A stretch of DNA of 64,000 nt, from contig CAIQOV010000005.1 in the NCBI GenBank assembly GCA_903873585.1, positions 1 to 64,000 of the forward strand. Reading direction: 5' to 3'. The first letter of the stretch is position 1, and every line of letters begins with the position of its first letter. A program made the translations under genes and the position numbers. The DNA is from an uncultured Rhodobacterales bacterium. Its GTDB lineage: Bacteria > Pseudomonadota > Alphaproteobacteria > Rhodobacterales > Rhodobacteraceae. Positions 5,553 through 23,442 of the stretch are shown here, in pieces. The notes below the pieces were generated by a model. That model searched no databases. It had not been told where the DNA came from and worked only from the letters and a program-made list of their open reading frames with translations.

Positions 5553-5672
5553 TTAGCCACCCATCCAGCCCGCCACTTTGTTCGCGCCGCCGGAAATATC
5601 CTGCCCCACGCCCGAAATCGTATTGCAGCCCGACAGGGCCACCAGAACAGCCAATACCAACAGTTTTTTCAT
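5553..5672 (-). CDS. Entericidin A/B-like small lipoprotein
   Basis: A 39-residue peptide, MKKLLVLAVLVALSGC then NTISGVGQDISGGANKVAGWMG. The lipobox LSGC predicts lipidation at Cys16, leaving a mature peptide of about 24 residues; the ISGVGQDI core is that of entericidin-like proteins. The ATG at 5670-5672 has a GAGGCAGAT ribosome-binding region. Longer in-frame readings overlap the upstream gene and are rejected. Entericidins are described as membrane-active stress lipoproteins in enterobacteria; the role in this group is unknown. It follows the YejA-like gene by 23 nt, so the two may share a transcript. Confidence 0.8.
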   Translation of the reverse strand: MKKLLVLAVLVALSGCNTISGVGQDISGGANKVAGWMGG

Positions 5673-5695
5673 GATCTGCCTCGCGTTTCTTTCGG

Positions 5696-7510
5696 TTAGT
5701 TCTGCTGCCACCATACATCCGGCATAAATCCCAGCCAATCCCCATAGGCGGCGATATAGTCGGGGTGTTTCAGGCTGCTTTTATGCGCCATATGGCTGAC
5801 GTTGGAATACCAGAACGGAATCACATATCGCCCCGATGTCAGCACGCGGTCAAGGGCCTGCACTGCCAGAACAAAATCCTCACGCCGTGTTGAACTGACC
5901 ATCGTGGTGATCAACCCATCCACCGCCGGAGAGGCAACGCCCATCCAATTGCGCGTGCCCTCTTTGGTCACCCCTTCAGACCCCCAATACAGCGTTTGCT
6001 CGTTGCCCGGGCTTAGCGAAAGCGAGCGGGTATAATGCGTCATGTCAAAGTTATAGGTCGTGGTGCGCTCTTTATACTGTGCCGAGTCAACCGTTTGGAT
6101 TGTGGCTGCGATGCCCAGTTTTTTAAGCGATTCAATGAAGATGTTCACCGCCGCAATCGTATCAGACTCGCCATTTGCCAAAAGAATTTCAAAGCGAAAC
6201 GCCTGACCTTGGGCATCTTTCAAAGCGCCGTCCTGAATAGTCCACCCCGCCTCTTCCAACAGCTTATTGGCCGCCCGCAAATTGGCGCGGTTGGCTTCTG
6301 ATCCGTCCGATACCGGCTGCGCATAGCCTTCTAGCGCACCGGGCAGCAGGGCGTCTTTATAGGGTTCCAACAGTGCTGCGACCGCGGGTGTTGCGGGCTG
6401 GGCCACATCGCCCGACAATTCGGAATTGTCAAAATAGCTTTGAATGCGCGGGTTTGCCCCGCCGTTGATCGTTTGGTTGATCAATTCAAAGTTGAACGCC
6501 AAGCTTAACGCCTGACGCACCCGCCAATCGGCAAAGATCGGTTTGCGGGTGTTAAACACCAACCCGTCAATCCCCGAGGGGCGCTTGTGCGGGATATCTT
6601 CCTTGACCACATCGCCCGCCTGCACCGCCGGAAAGTCATAGGTCGTGGCCCATTTGGCCGCATTGCTTTCGCGGTACATATCAATATCGCCGGCTTTCAG
6701 CGCTTCGACGATCACGGTGGGGTCGGCGAAATAGATGTATTTCAGGGCGTCGAAGTTCCACAGCCCCTTGTTAAACGCCAAATCCGCGCCCCACCAATTG
6801 GGGTTGCGCTTATAGGTGATGAAATTCCCCGCCTCGACCTGATCGACAACATAGGGGCCAGACCCGATCACAGGGTCAAGGCTAGAGGCGGTGAAATCTT
6901 TCCCCTTCCACTGCGCCTTTTCCAAAATCGGGCGCAGGCCCAACAGCAAGGGCATTTCGCGATCAGGTTCAGTAAAGGTGAACTTGACCGACCTAGGCCC
7001 GGTTTGGGCCGATGTGGCAATTTTCTTCCATGCTGCAGCGTAGCGAGGATTGCCCTGTTCGCCCAAAGTTTGAAACGACCACAGCACATCGTCCACGCTC
7101 ACGGGGGCACCATCCGAGAATCGCGCGCCCTCGCGCAGGGTGAATTCGACGTAAGTGCGCGCCGCATCGGTATCAACCGATTCGGCCAAAAGCCCGTAAA
7201 GCGAGAAGGGCTCGTCATAAGAACGGCCCATAAGTGTCTCAACTGTCAGGGTAGAAATCGAACCGGGGGCCGAGCCTTTGGTGATGAACGGGTTGAGCGA
7301 ATCAAAGCTGCCCGCCTCGCCAAAGGTCACGCTGCCGCCCTTGGGGGCTGCCGGATTGGCTTGGGGCAAAGACACAAAATCCGGTGGCAAAGCGGGGTCG
7401 CCGTACATAGCAATGGCGTGGCGGGGTTGGGCTGTGGCCATCTGGGCGCTGACGGCAAGGGCCAAAACGGCTGCCAAGCTTCGCGCAATTTTGAACAGGT
7501 TGACGGGCAT
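5696..7510 (-). CDS. YejA-like extracellular solute-binding protein, family 5
   Basis: A 604-residue periplasmic binding protein of the peptide/opine/nickel family, closest in style to YejA (HAIAMYGDPALPPDF, NPAAPKGGSVTFGEAG, SLNPFITKG). Residues 1-27 are a Sec signal peptide ending at ATAQ/P. YejA works with permeases YejB and YejE and ATPase YejF to import oligopeptides such as microcin C. No permease or ATPase gene adjoins it here, so it is either an orphan receptor using a transporter encoded elsewhere or part of a scattered system. The substrate cannot be told from the sequence. Confidence 0.9.
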   Translation of the reverse strand: MPVNLFKIARSLAAVLALAVSAQMATAQPRHAIAMYGDPALPPDFVSLPQANPAAPKGGSVTFGEAGSFDSLNPFITKGSAPGSISTLTVETLMGRSYDEPFSLYGLLAESVDTDAARTYVEFTLREGARFSDGAPVSVDDVLWSFQTLGEQGNPRYAAAWKKIATSAQTGPRSVKFTFTEPDREMPLLLGLRPILEKAQWKGKDFTASSLDPVIGSGPYVVDQVEAGNFITYKRNPNWWGADLAFNKGLWNFDALKYIYFADPTVIVEALKAGDIDMYRESNAAKWATTYDFPAVQAGDVVKEDIPHKRPSGIDGLVFNTRKPIFADWRVRQALSLAFNFELINQTINGGANPRIQSYFDNSELSGDVAQPATPAVAALLEPYKDALLPGALEGYAQPVSDGSEANRANLRAANKLLEEAGWTIQDGALKDAQGQAFRFEILLANGESDTIAAVNIFIESLKKLGIAATIQTVDSAQYKERTTTYNFDMTHYTRSLSLSPGNEQTLYWGSEGVTKEGTRNWMGVASPAVDGLITTMVSSTRREDFVLAVQALDRVLTSGRYVIPFWYSNVSHMAHKSSLKHPDYIAAYGDWLGFMPDVWWQQN

Positions 7511-7581
7511 CTTTGGCAGTCCTTTGACGGGGTCTATGGGGCAACCCTACGGCGGGTTGCCGTGCATTTCAAACCTTTAGC

Positions 7582-7610
7582 TTGAAGGTTTAGGGCAAGG
7601 GGATTATAAA
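7582..7610 (+). promoter_or_regulatory. Sigma-70-type promoter for the small RNA candidate
   Basis: TTGAAG at 7582-7587 and TATAAA at 7605-7610 are separated by exactly 17 bp. The -10 matches five of six consensus bases and the -35 four of six. The expected transcript start is near A7617. No other intergenic region I read in this window carries so clear a pair. It points away from the YejA-like gene and toward the hairpin/terminator at 7627-7691. Confidence 0.7.
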
Positions 7611-7616
7611 GTGTTC

Positions 7617-7691
7617 ACTGCTCGATAGGTTTCTTGCCTGTATGAAACCTGCCTCAACGACTTAGCGCCGGCTTCGTGCCGGCGTTTTTTT
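7617..7691 (+). ncRNA. Candidate free-standing small RNA, about 75 nt
   Basis: From the predicted start near 7617 the transcript would contain a perfect 7-bp hairpin (AGGTTTC 7627-7633 with GAAACCT 7644-7650, 10-nt loop TTGCCTGTAT), a single-stranded linker (GCCTCAACGACTTAG), and a rho-independent terminator ending in seven U. No ribosome-binding site or plausible reading frame lies inside. Promoter, structured body and terminator fit in about 110 bp, the layout of trans-acting bacterial sRNAs. I do not recognise a named family. It could alternatively be a terminated leader of bdhA, which starts at 7760. Confidence 0.6.
7666..7691 (+). terminator. Rho-independent terminator of the small RNA
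   Basis: CGCCGGC (7666-7672) pairs perfectly with GCCGGCG (7678-7684) around a 5-nt loop TTCGT, followed at once by seven T and then ATTTT. Confidence 0.9.
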
Positions 7692-7759
7692 ATTTTCCAA
7701 GGGTCGCTTGCCTTTCCGCTCGCAGGTGCAGCATTCTGGCGCAAAGAATGGAGCATATC

Positions 7760-8533
7760 ATGACCCTGTCAGGCAAAACCGCTGTCATCACCGGATCAAA
7801 CTCTGGCATCGGCCTTGGCGTGGCCGAGGCGCTGGCGGCAGCAGGCGCGCATATTGTGCTGAACTCTTTCACCGACCGCTCGGAAGACCACGCCCTTGCC
7901 GCCGATCTGGCGCAGCGCCACGGGGTTAACGTGCGCTATATTGCCGCCGATATGGCCGACGGTGCCGCGTGCCGTGATCTGATTGCCAAAGCGGGGGCCT
8001 GCGACATTTTGGTGAACAACGCCGGTATCCAGCACGTGGCCGCTATCGAAAACTTCCCCCCCGCCATGTGGGACCGCATCATTGCGATCAACCTGTCCTC
8101 GGCCTTTCACACCACCGCCGCCGCCTTGCCCGGCATGAAGGCCAAGGGTTGGGGGCGGGTGGTTAATATCGCCTCGGCCCACGGGTTAACCGCAAGCCCG
8201 TTCAAATCCGCCTATATCGCGGCCAAACACGGGATTGTCGGCCTGTCAAAGACCACAGCGCTGGAAGTGGCAGGCATGGGCATCACCGCCAACGCCATAT
8301 GCCCCGGCTATGTGCTGACCCCCTTGGTCGAAGCGCAAATTCCCGATCAAATGCAGGTGCACGGCATGGACCGCGACACCGTGATCCGTGAAGTGATGCT
8401 GCTGCGCCAACCCTCGCGCCAGTTTGCCACGGTGGAGCAGATCGGCGGGACGACCGTGTATCTATGTTCCCCCGCCGCCGATCAGGTGACGGGCACCACG
8501 ATCAGCGTCGATGGCGGCTGGACCGCGCTTTAA
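7760..8533 (+). CDS. bdhA: D-beta-hydroxybutyrate dehydrogenase, SDR family
   Basis: A 257-residue NAD-dependent short-chain dehydrogenase that oxidises (R)-3-hydroxybutyrate to acetoacetate in polyhydroxybutyrate and ketone metabolism. The nucleotide-binding TGSNSGIG is at residues 11-18, NNAG at 86-89, and the catalytic Ser139, Tyr152 and Lys156 (SAYIAAK) are in place. The end ...QVTGTTISVDGGWTAL is typical of the hydroxybutyrate dehydrogenase subgroup. The ATG at 7760 follows GGAG; a longer frame from 7676 would start inside the terminator of the small RNA and is rejected. Confidence 0.92.
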   Translation: MTLSGKTAVITGSNSGIGLGVAEALAAAGAHIVLNSFTDRSEDHALAADLAQRHGVNVRYIAADMADGAACRDLIAKAGACDILVNNAGIQHVAAIENFPPAMWDRIIAINLSSAFHTTAAALPGMKAKGWGRVVNIASAHGLTASPFKSAYIAAKHGIVGLSKTTALEVAGMGITANAICPGYVLTPLVEAQIPDQMQVHGMDRDTVIREVMLLRQPSRQFATVEQIGGTTVYLCSPAADQVTGTTISVDGGWTAL

Positions 8534-22356: not shown

Positions 22357-23442
22357 TCAGCCCAGCCGAATTCGGGGATTAAGGAAGACATAGCCGATGT
22401 CGGAAATCAGCTGGGTCAGAAGCACAAAGATCACAGCCACCACAGACGCGCCCAACAACATCTCGATGTCGTTATTGCCCGCAGCGGTGACAAGCATCCA
22501 GCCGAAGCCTTTGTAATTGAAAAGGGTTTCGGTAATCACCACACCGTTGAGCAGATAGGGAAATTGCAACATAATCACGGTAAAGGGCGCGATCATCGCA
22601 TTGCGCAGCGCGTGGCGCAGCACCACTTGGCGAAAGCTGACGCCCTTAAGCCGTGCGGTGCGGATATATTGTTGCGTCATCACCTCGGTCATCGAAGCGC
22701 GGGTCATGCGGGCGATATACCCCACGCCGTACAGCGCAATCGTCGCCACAGGCAGGCCAAAATTCCAAAACGTGATGTGATCCATGGCAGAGGTCGCCGT
22801 GCCCATGAACAGCGTCTTTTTGCCGATCCAGCCCCATTGCGCCAACAAAGGCGAAAGCCCCGTGGCCGGAGAGGCCAACAGCGCCACCAAAATCACGCCC
22901 GACACATATTCCGGCGTTGCACTTGTGGCGATGGAAAAGGTCGACAGCACGCGGTCGGTGCGCGAGCCTTCGCGCATTCCTGCCAGAACGCCAATCACCA
23001 GCGCGATTGGCACCATCACCAGCATCACCGCCAGCATCAACCAACCCGTGGCCGCCATAGATTTGCCCAGCGAATACAGAACCGTCTTCTTGAAAACGGT
23101 CGAAAAGCCCCAGTTGCCCTGAAAAATCCCGCAACGCTTCGGCGCTAAGGCCGGATCGTCGCGCTGCCCGATGCACAGCCCGCGCGTCACACCCTTTTCA
23201 TCGGTGCGCACCCAACCGGGTGCCGCCCCCAGCCATTCGGCATAGCGATAAAACACCGAACCGGTATGGCCATGCTCGTCCAGCCACGATGCCACGGCCG
23301 CATCCGTCATACGGACCGACCCTTCCGAGCGGGCGAGTTTTTCCAAATTCGGGGCCAAATTGGTGAGATAGAAAACGACAAAGGTCAAAACCAAAGCCGT
23401 CACCAGCATCACACCCAGACGCCGGATCACGAATGCGAGCAT
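22357..23442 (-). CDS. ABC transporter permease (DppB-like)
   Basis: A 361-residue inner-membrane permease that begins with the family N-terminus (MLAFVIRRLGVMLVTALVLTF) and ends with the EAA-type coupling loop (LKGVSFRQVVLRHALRNAM). About six membrane helices are visible, with a periplasmic insert of about 80 residues between helices 1 and 2 that includes a short Cys-containing stretch. It pairs with the DppC-like permease immediately downstream (1-nt gap). Confidence 0.92.
   Translation of the reverse strand: MLAFVIRRLGVMLVTALVLTFVVFYLTNLAPNLEKLARSEGSVRMTDAAVASWLDEHGHTGSVFYRYAEWLGAAPGWVRTDEKGVTRGLCIGQRDDPALAPKRCGIFQGNWGFSTVFKKTVLYSLGKSMAATGWLMLAVMLVMVPIALVIGVLAGMREGSRTDRVLSTFSIATSATPEYVSGVILVALLASPATGLSPLLAQWGWIGKKTLFMGTATSAMDHITFWNFGLPVATIALYGVGYIARMTRASMTEVMTQQYIRTARLKGVSFRQVVLRHALRNAMIAPFTVIMLQFPYLLNGVVITETLFNYKGFGWMLVTAAGNNDIEMLLGASVVAVIFVLLTQLISDIGYVFLNPRIRLG

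Follow-up and report, generated by a model that had tools for sequence, protein, structure and literature searches.

A short stretch of DNA between a peptide-binding-protein gene and bdhA, on a contig of an uncultured Rhodobacterales bacterium, raises the question of whether it holds a small RNA (sRNA) gene of its own and, if so, how the RNA acts. An earlier note, made from this one sequence, had described a compact promoter-hairpin-terminator unit here and read it as a likely unnamed sRNA. In the window, the whole stretch of 64,000 nucleotides that was analyzed, the parts of this unit lie on the forward strand where they had been placed. A −35 element, TTGAAG, at positions 7582 to 7587 is followed, after a 17-nt spacer, by a −10 element, TATAAA, at positions 7605 to 7610, and transcription is predicted to start at an A at position 7617, 7 nt past the −10 element, where sequence conservation sets in. 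The first 40 nt from this position (7617 to 7656), ACTGCTCGATAGGTTTCTTGCCTGTATGAAACCTGCCTCA, form a core that includes stem-loop 1 (7627 to 7650). The arms of this hairpin, AGGTTTC at 7627 to 7633 and GAAACCT at 7644 to 7650, are 100% complementary over 7 bp and enclose a 10-nt loop, TTGCCTGTAT, at 7634 to 7643. A Rho-independent terminator with a U run occupies positions 7664 to 7691, its stem lying within 7664 to 7686 and its T run reaching 7691. The promoter, the perfect hairpin, and the terminator were thus borne out as sequence. The loop had been called pyrimidine rich, which holds for 7 of its 10 letters; the most constrained part of the unit is not the loop alone but the 3' arm together with the linker, GAAACCUGCCUC, at 7644 to 7655. 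In an alignment (A2) of 61 distinct rows, some of them from divergent members, this candidate seed shows no change.

On the single sequence, the evidence for an sRNA unit is moderate. The predicted 75-nt sRNA folds with an energy of −26.3 kcal/mol (z, −3.42), and none of 200 shuffled sequences folded as well, a figure that includes the terminator. The pattern TTG-N20-TATAAA occurs once in the window, against 0.10 expected. Scanning of positions 7000 to 8300 gave no site for a strict sigma-70 pattern, which requires T as the sixth −10 letter, and one terminator-like site, not above the 2.2 expected from shuffles. The unit is therefore judged to be non-random from its conservation across genomes and not from the single sequence.

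When the 40-mer from +1 was searched for with at most 3 mismatches, it was found in 378 of 394 family genomes, representing 377 of 393 genera, and in 340 of the 347 genomes of good quality; a reversed-pattern control gave 0 matches. Among the 150 matches listed, which come from 149 genomes (G664 has two), 147 were exact and the others had 1, 1, and 3 mismatches. Twenty genomes were searched again with a covariance model (R1) that rests on 26 distinct sequences, taken from the top of the score list, and is biased towards close copies: the 16 without the 40-mer, three with mismatches (G657, G661, and G791), and G014. Nine of the 20 matched, and 6 of the 16 misses were recovered (G040, G107, G137, G212, G802, and G800), the match in G800 being a fragment at a contig end. 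With R1, ten of the 394 family genomes (70 to 92% complete) were still without a match to the sRNA, as was G014 (95% complete).

The onset of this conservation coincides with the predicted start of the RNA. Across 43 family loci found by BLAST, conservation of at least 95% starts at the predicted +1 and extends over 41 columns, as measured on best-scoring matches. In 98 distinct loci aligned at +1, the mean majority fraction is 0.65 at −75 to −1 and 0.36 at +80 to +115; these loci were selected for an exact core, so that their value of 1.00 at +1 to +40 arises by construction. GTTTC, GCCT, and GAAACCTGCCTC never change in the 61 distinct rows. The two most divergent members are L160 (G212), which has lost the first ten core letters, and L161 (G040), in which one pair of stem 1 is broken, and neither has a recognizable −10 element. 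The near identity of 40 letters across the family suggests an important role in control.

The sRNA is present in a single copy in its own genome. By BLAST, 15 of the 16 genomes from the same genus have it, as do 197 of 199 Rhodobacteraceae genomes with a completeness of at least 90%; in this family sample each matching genome has a single match, save for G049, G131, and G167, which have two each. All 44 genomes of a second genus carry it as well. The earlier note had proposed a covariance search over Rhodobacterales; in an order sample (at least 90% complete), R1 matched all 149 genomes, every one of which proved to be from Rhodobacteraceae. In a class sample, which was scored with stricter filters and says nothing on family members without a match, 7 of 289 genomes matched, 5 of them Rhodobacteraceae. 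The out-of-family matches (G273 and G330) were rejected upon comparison of the sequences, which have only the terminator hairpin in common with the sRNA. These genus, family, order, class, and second-genus samples overlap. A second, weak match in G107 was discarded as lacking the core, and G536 has a second R1 match of 31.5 bits. No match to the sRNA was found in phage records or, by an exact 28-mer search, in viral contigs. Within Rhodobacteraceae, the sRNA is presumably inherited vertically.

The promoter elements are conserved along with the core. In the 98 distinct loci, CTTG at −36 to −33 is kept in 88 to 99% per position, and TATA is kept at −12 to −9 in all but 4, being shifted by one in two of these and altered in L135 and L136. 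The spacer between the −35 and −10 elements is 17 nt long in 86 of 93 scored loci, 18 nt in 5, and 12 nt in 2. We read this promoter as probably of the housekeeping type. Directly upstream of its −35 element, a block, TCAAAC.TTT, is conserved in the 98 loci. The TCAAAC of this block, at −48 to −43, and a conserved TA at −69/−68 read on the minus strand as TTGAAA-17-TAGGNT, which in the window corresponds to a predicted promoter for the divergent peptide-binding-protein gene (7544 to 7572, minus strand), with TTGAAA at 7567 to 7572, a 17-nt spacer, and TAGGGT at 7544 to 7549. A back-to-back arrangement of the two promoters is plausible from these motifs. With both in one conserved block, at 7544 to 7610, control of the two by one regulator is possible. 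The apparent sharing of the block upstream of −35 with the divergent promoter would also suit a conserved DNA element, either a protein-binding site or a promoter part, that gives rise to no RNA; however, the frozen letters are found past the −10 element, outside the promoter, and a terminator stem that covaries comes after them, which makes such an element very improbable.

The divergent neighbor encodes a solute-binding protein (SBP) of family 5 (SBP_bac_5; positions 5696 to 7510, minus strand; Pfam PF00496, 227.8 bits). All 91 distinct loci that span at least 2,400 nt have an SBP_bac_5 gene divergently upstream, and the SBP gene also adjoins the sRNA in 8 of 8 divergent full-length members (L154 to L161). 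Just downstream of the SBP gene in the window is a short open reading frame (ORF) at 5553 to 5738 (minus strand), the C-terminal part of which, MKKLLVLAVLVALSGCNTISGVGQDISGGANKVAGWMGG, we take by eye to resemble an entericidin-type lipoprotein; a 39-amino-acid part of this ORF has no Pfam match.

The other neighbor, bdhA (7760 to 8533, plus strand), encodes 3-hydroxybutyrate dehydrogenase (TIGR01963, 363 bits against a cutoff of 307) and lies outside the sRNA unit. A bdhA match is found co-directionally downstream in 83 of 91 loci, as would be expected if the sRNA unit were the 5' leader of bdhA or an attenuator at which termination is partial, and the earlier note had itself raised the prospect that the unit is only such a leader. 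The gap between the two, however, is between 46 and 2,314 nt long, with 11 of the 83 loci above 400 nt, and 8 of the 91 loci have no bdhA within the 1.5 to 4 kb of downstream sequence examined. In L133, L141, L147, L149, and L150, the nearest recognized gene (PsuG, HTH, or DUF502) lies on the other strand, in some of them several hundred nucleotides away from the sRNA; in L096 and L097, a co-directional 389-amino-acid ORF of no recognized kind comes next; and in L138, still counted among the eight, the downstream context is ambiguous. Because these eight loci keep the sRNA without bdhA in that downstream stretch, the sRNA is not a bdhA leader, a reading that we regard as largely refuted and to which we attach very little probability. 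The unit is independent of the SBP gene as well, which lies on the other strand in all 91 loci. Four Paracoccus records list as plasmids the replicons that carry the sRNA, which are 1.46 to 2.24 Mb in size; in the two records examined further, SBP and bdhA genes flank it, and neither record has an annotated feature at the site, their gene tables holding two features each. Regulatory sRNAs usually drift fast beyond short seeds. Here, 40 nt that are nearly unchanged in 377 of 393 genera sampled, next to the same SBP gene in 91 of 91 loci, imply strong constraint on the sRNA.

The secondary structure was examined in A2. Both-side changes occur in 6 of 8 terminator pairs, and the terminator has 52 cells with both-side changes compared with 16.9 in shuffles, none of 500 shuffles being as high. 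For the whole structure, the covariation score exceeded all 500 shuffles and all slid versions. These results support the terminator as an RNA structure. Stem 1 shows no compensatory change in the 61 rows: six of its seven pairs are the same throughout, and the seventh is broken in a single row (L161) without repair. Because both arms are frozen, stem 1 lacks covariation support, and its hairpin, as predicted from folding energy, is unproven. With motifs conserved in 98 loci and a covarying terminator, the unit has its own promoter and intrinsic terminator, both predicted to be active. Collectively, family-wide presence, the onset of conservation at +1, the conserved promoter, and the covarying terminator support the compact, stand-alone sRNA gene that had been proposed. 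The frozen core also contains ATGAAACCTGCCTCA, from which a micro-ORF (MKPAS..) or leader peptide might begin, but no Shine-Dalgarno sequence precedes it, its length and stop vary (TAA, TAG, or TGA, ACTGAA rows having no stop close by), several rows have a shifted frame past TCA, and the ATG is lost in L159 and L161. Translation of the core is scarcely credible on these grounds.

We consider it likely that the locus encodes a stand-alone base-pairing regulatory RNA of about 75 nt with UGCCU-type seeds, kept throughout Rhodobacteraceae. The housekeeping-type promoter, back to back with that of the peptide-binding-protein gene, would start the RNA at A7617, and the intrinsic terminator would end it near 7691, a transcript of about 75 nt being predicted from sequence and conservation. 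Its 5' stem-loop would present UUGCCUGU, next to an unpaired linker with CUGCCUC. The two UGCCU motifs, one in the loop and one in the linker, are the likely seeds for pairing in trans with AGGCA-containing sites, which, by analogy, would plausibly lie near the ribosome-binding sites of several mRNAs. The U tail may serve as an Hfq site, as in known alphaproteobacterial sRNAs.

Pairing with the two neighboring genes was not significant. A mean fraction of 0.506 of 100 shuffled sRNAs paired as well with the SBP 5' region (92 loci), and the corresponding fraction for the bdhA 5' region was 0.426 (89 loci); with every third locus compared, the longest helix was equaled in 21 of 60 and 9 of 60 shuffles, respectively. 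A 32-nt antisense pattern, allowing at most 3 mismatches, matched only the sRNA gene itself in its own genome, and in the 64-kb window the seed complements GAGGCAGG and ACAGGCAAG occur only within the sRNA gene. That no pairing with the neighbors was detected would be compatible with a real RNA that acts by binding a protein or another RNA, as a sponge or structural RNA, and not by pairing with mRNAs. The arms of stem 1, which hardly vary and do not covary, are likewise as expected if the letters themselves, and not only the pairs, are read. Hfq-dependent base-pairing sRNAs typically consist of a short hairpin, an open pyrimidine-rich stretch, and a terminator with a U tail. The layout found here is typical of that class, which argues against a protein-binding or sponge RNA, as does the extension of the most constrained stretch beyond the stem into the unpaired linker, and we regard such an RNA as unlikely. 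Given the near invariance of both arms, they are either used by many targets or read by a protein; we rank the first ahead, and the second has a real chance.

For the base-pairing RNA, the freezing of about 40 nt, both arms included, would be best explained by many targets or by arms that are used for pairing as well as folding. In its furthest form, which we put forward only tentatively and hold to be somewhat doubtful, the RNA would be a family-wide core riboregulator, its 5' 40 nt frozen because base pairing makes use of arms, loop, and linker alike. On target binding, the hairpin of such a riboregulator may open, and the letters of its arms would be fixed twice, by folding and by shared targets. 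If this is true, the target set would be common across hundreds of genera, and, leaving aside ribosomal, 6S, SRP, and tmRNA, few regulatory RNAs of Alphaproteobacteria would presumably be as constrained in sequence. Its role is directly testable, since the sRNA is present in Rhodobacter sphaeroides 2.4.1, a tractable sRNA model.

Whether this RNA has been recorded before was assessed against Rfam 15 and the literature. No Rfam 15 family reaches its gathering score over the sRNA. The only match in the window is Cis52_sRNA (RF02647, 81.4 bits) at 22602 to 22778 (plus strand), antisense to an ORF at 22357 to 23442 (minus strand) with a transporter permease domain (BPD_transp_1, 116 bits); conservation of the coding sequence, and not an antisense RNA, may be behind this match. 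The searched literature, which does not extend to the Berghoff 2009 and Grull 2017 catalogues, gave no name for the RNA, and when six 12- to 13-mers of the core were searched in papers, none of the matches listed was, by title, on a Rhodobacteraceae sRNA. Because these main catalogues lie outside the search, the sRNA may bear a number in R. sphaeroides or R. capsulatus lists, and the description of it as unnamed is supported as far as Rfam 15 and the searched literature reach. The numbers RSs1368 and RSs1386, attributed to Berghoff 2009, were not found in the searched literature.

In R. sphaeroides 2.4.1 or a collinear strain (genome G061), the RNA lies at 1,443,997 to 1,444,071 on the minus strand of chromosome 1 (C4). 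The genome was identified by its SorX model match at C4:2598225-2598299, which agrees with the SorX 5' end of 2,598,224 in the available text of PMC6238624. The locus is apart from those of the SorX, SorY, PcrZ, RSs1624, RSP_1771, and RSP_7527 sRNAs as given in the accessible parts of the publications. Interpolation from the positions of SorX and SorY and their old numbers, as excerpted from PMC5036791, would give a number of about RSs1364 at 1,444 kb. For Paracoccus denitrificans, the available part of PMC5107571 has Intergenic 134 and Intergenic 60 as expressed rows in Table 1, and either could be this RNA, although each fits badly. For Intergenic 134, that text reports relatives in Streptomyces, and its species list has neither Dinoroseobacter nor Roseobacter, which counts against identity because this RNA is near universal. 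The number of Intergenic 60 suggests a place on chromosome 1, and the same text reports it from Sphingomonadales, whereas this RNA is on Paracoccus replicons listed as plasmids.

Among known sRNAs, GcvB resembles this RNA in its link to peptide-binding-protein genes, such a gene being the divergent neighbor here. GcvB acts on oppA and dppA. This RNA scores only 13.5 bits against a cutoff of 42 with the GcvB model and pairs with the SBP gene no better than shuffles do. The mmgR/suhB RNA (RF00519) is an alphaproteobacterial sRNA of 77 positions, and mmgR is named after granules (PHB, Sinorhizobium); this RNA often adjoins bdhA. The mmgR/suhB family was rejected at 21.2 bits against a gathering score of 41, with few agreeing letters beyond the terminator. 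RF00519 itself is found above its cutoff, at 60 to 68 bits, in 4 of 41 Rhodobacteraceae (L126 to L129, from G029, G031, G019, and G016), and the core is absent from those four stretches.

SorX (RF02784) has a similar build, with a length of about 75 nt, a 5' hairpin, a C/U-rich open stretch, and a terminator. It was rejected, since this RNA scores 21.6 bits against a gathering score of 46.6 and the true SorX is found on contig C37 of the same genome at 80.6 bits; the alignment of the two agrees best in the terminator, and the core was found in none of 15 SorX loci examined. According to the available text of PMC6238624, SorX is cleaved off the 3' end of an mRNA. The SorX model matches the own genome twice, at C37:101019-101092 (80.6 bits) and at C1:3426-3487 (46.2 bits; cutoff, 46.6), and has 5 or 6 matches in some of 100 Rhodobacteraceae, which may indicate a multicopy group of SorX-like RNAs.

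DenR (sRNA-29) of P. denitrificans is described in the accessible part of PMC6686037 as well conserved in several Rhodobacteraceae. We infer that it is the Antisense 29 of PMC5107571, placed at 497748 to 497832 in the available Tables 1 and 2, the species list of which does not include R. sphaeroides; if so, DenR differs from this RNA, which is present in R. sphaeroides 2.4.1. StsR (formerly RSs0827) of R. sphaeroides is, in the available texts of PMC8307010 and PMC11354728, a 72-nt RNA with its own expression control that is capable of binding Hfq, and is thus close in length to the approximately 75 nt here. StsR is under RpoHI/RpoHII, whereas we read the promoter of this RNA as housekeeping type. 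With the probe sequence available from PMC11354728 as a query, StsR was rejected: in Cereibacter changlensis, C. johrii, and Luteovulum azotoformans, the probe target is at another locus, of different sequence in the two of the three genomes compared, and in all three this RNA is on another contig or at another place, with 96 to 97% identity. Set beside these systems, the locus very probably holds a real sRNA gene that is exceptionally conserved, belongs to a known kind, and has no Rfam family; it merits one, through which it would be recorded by genome annotation.
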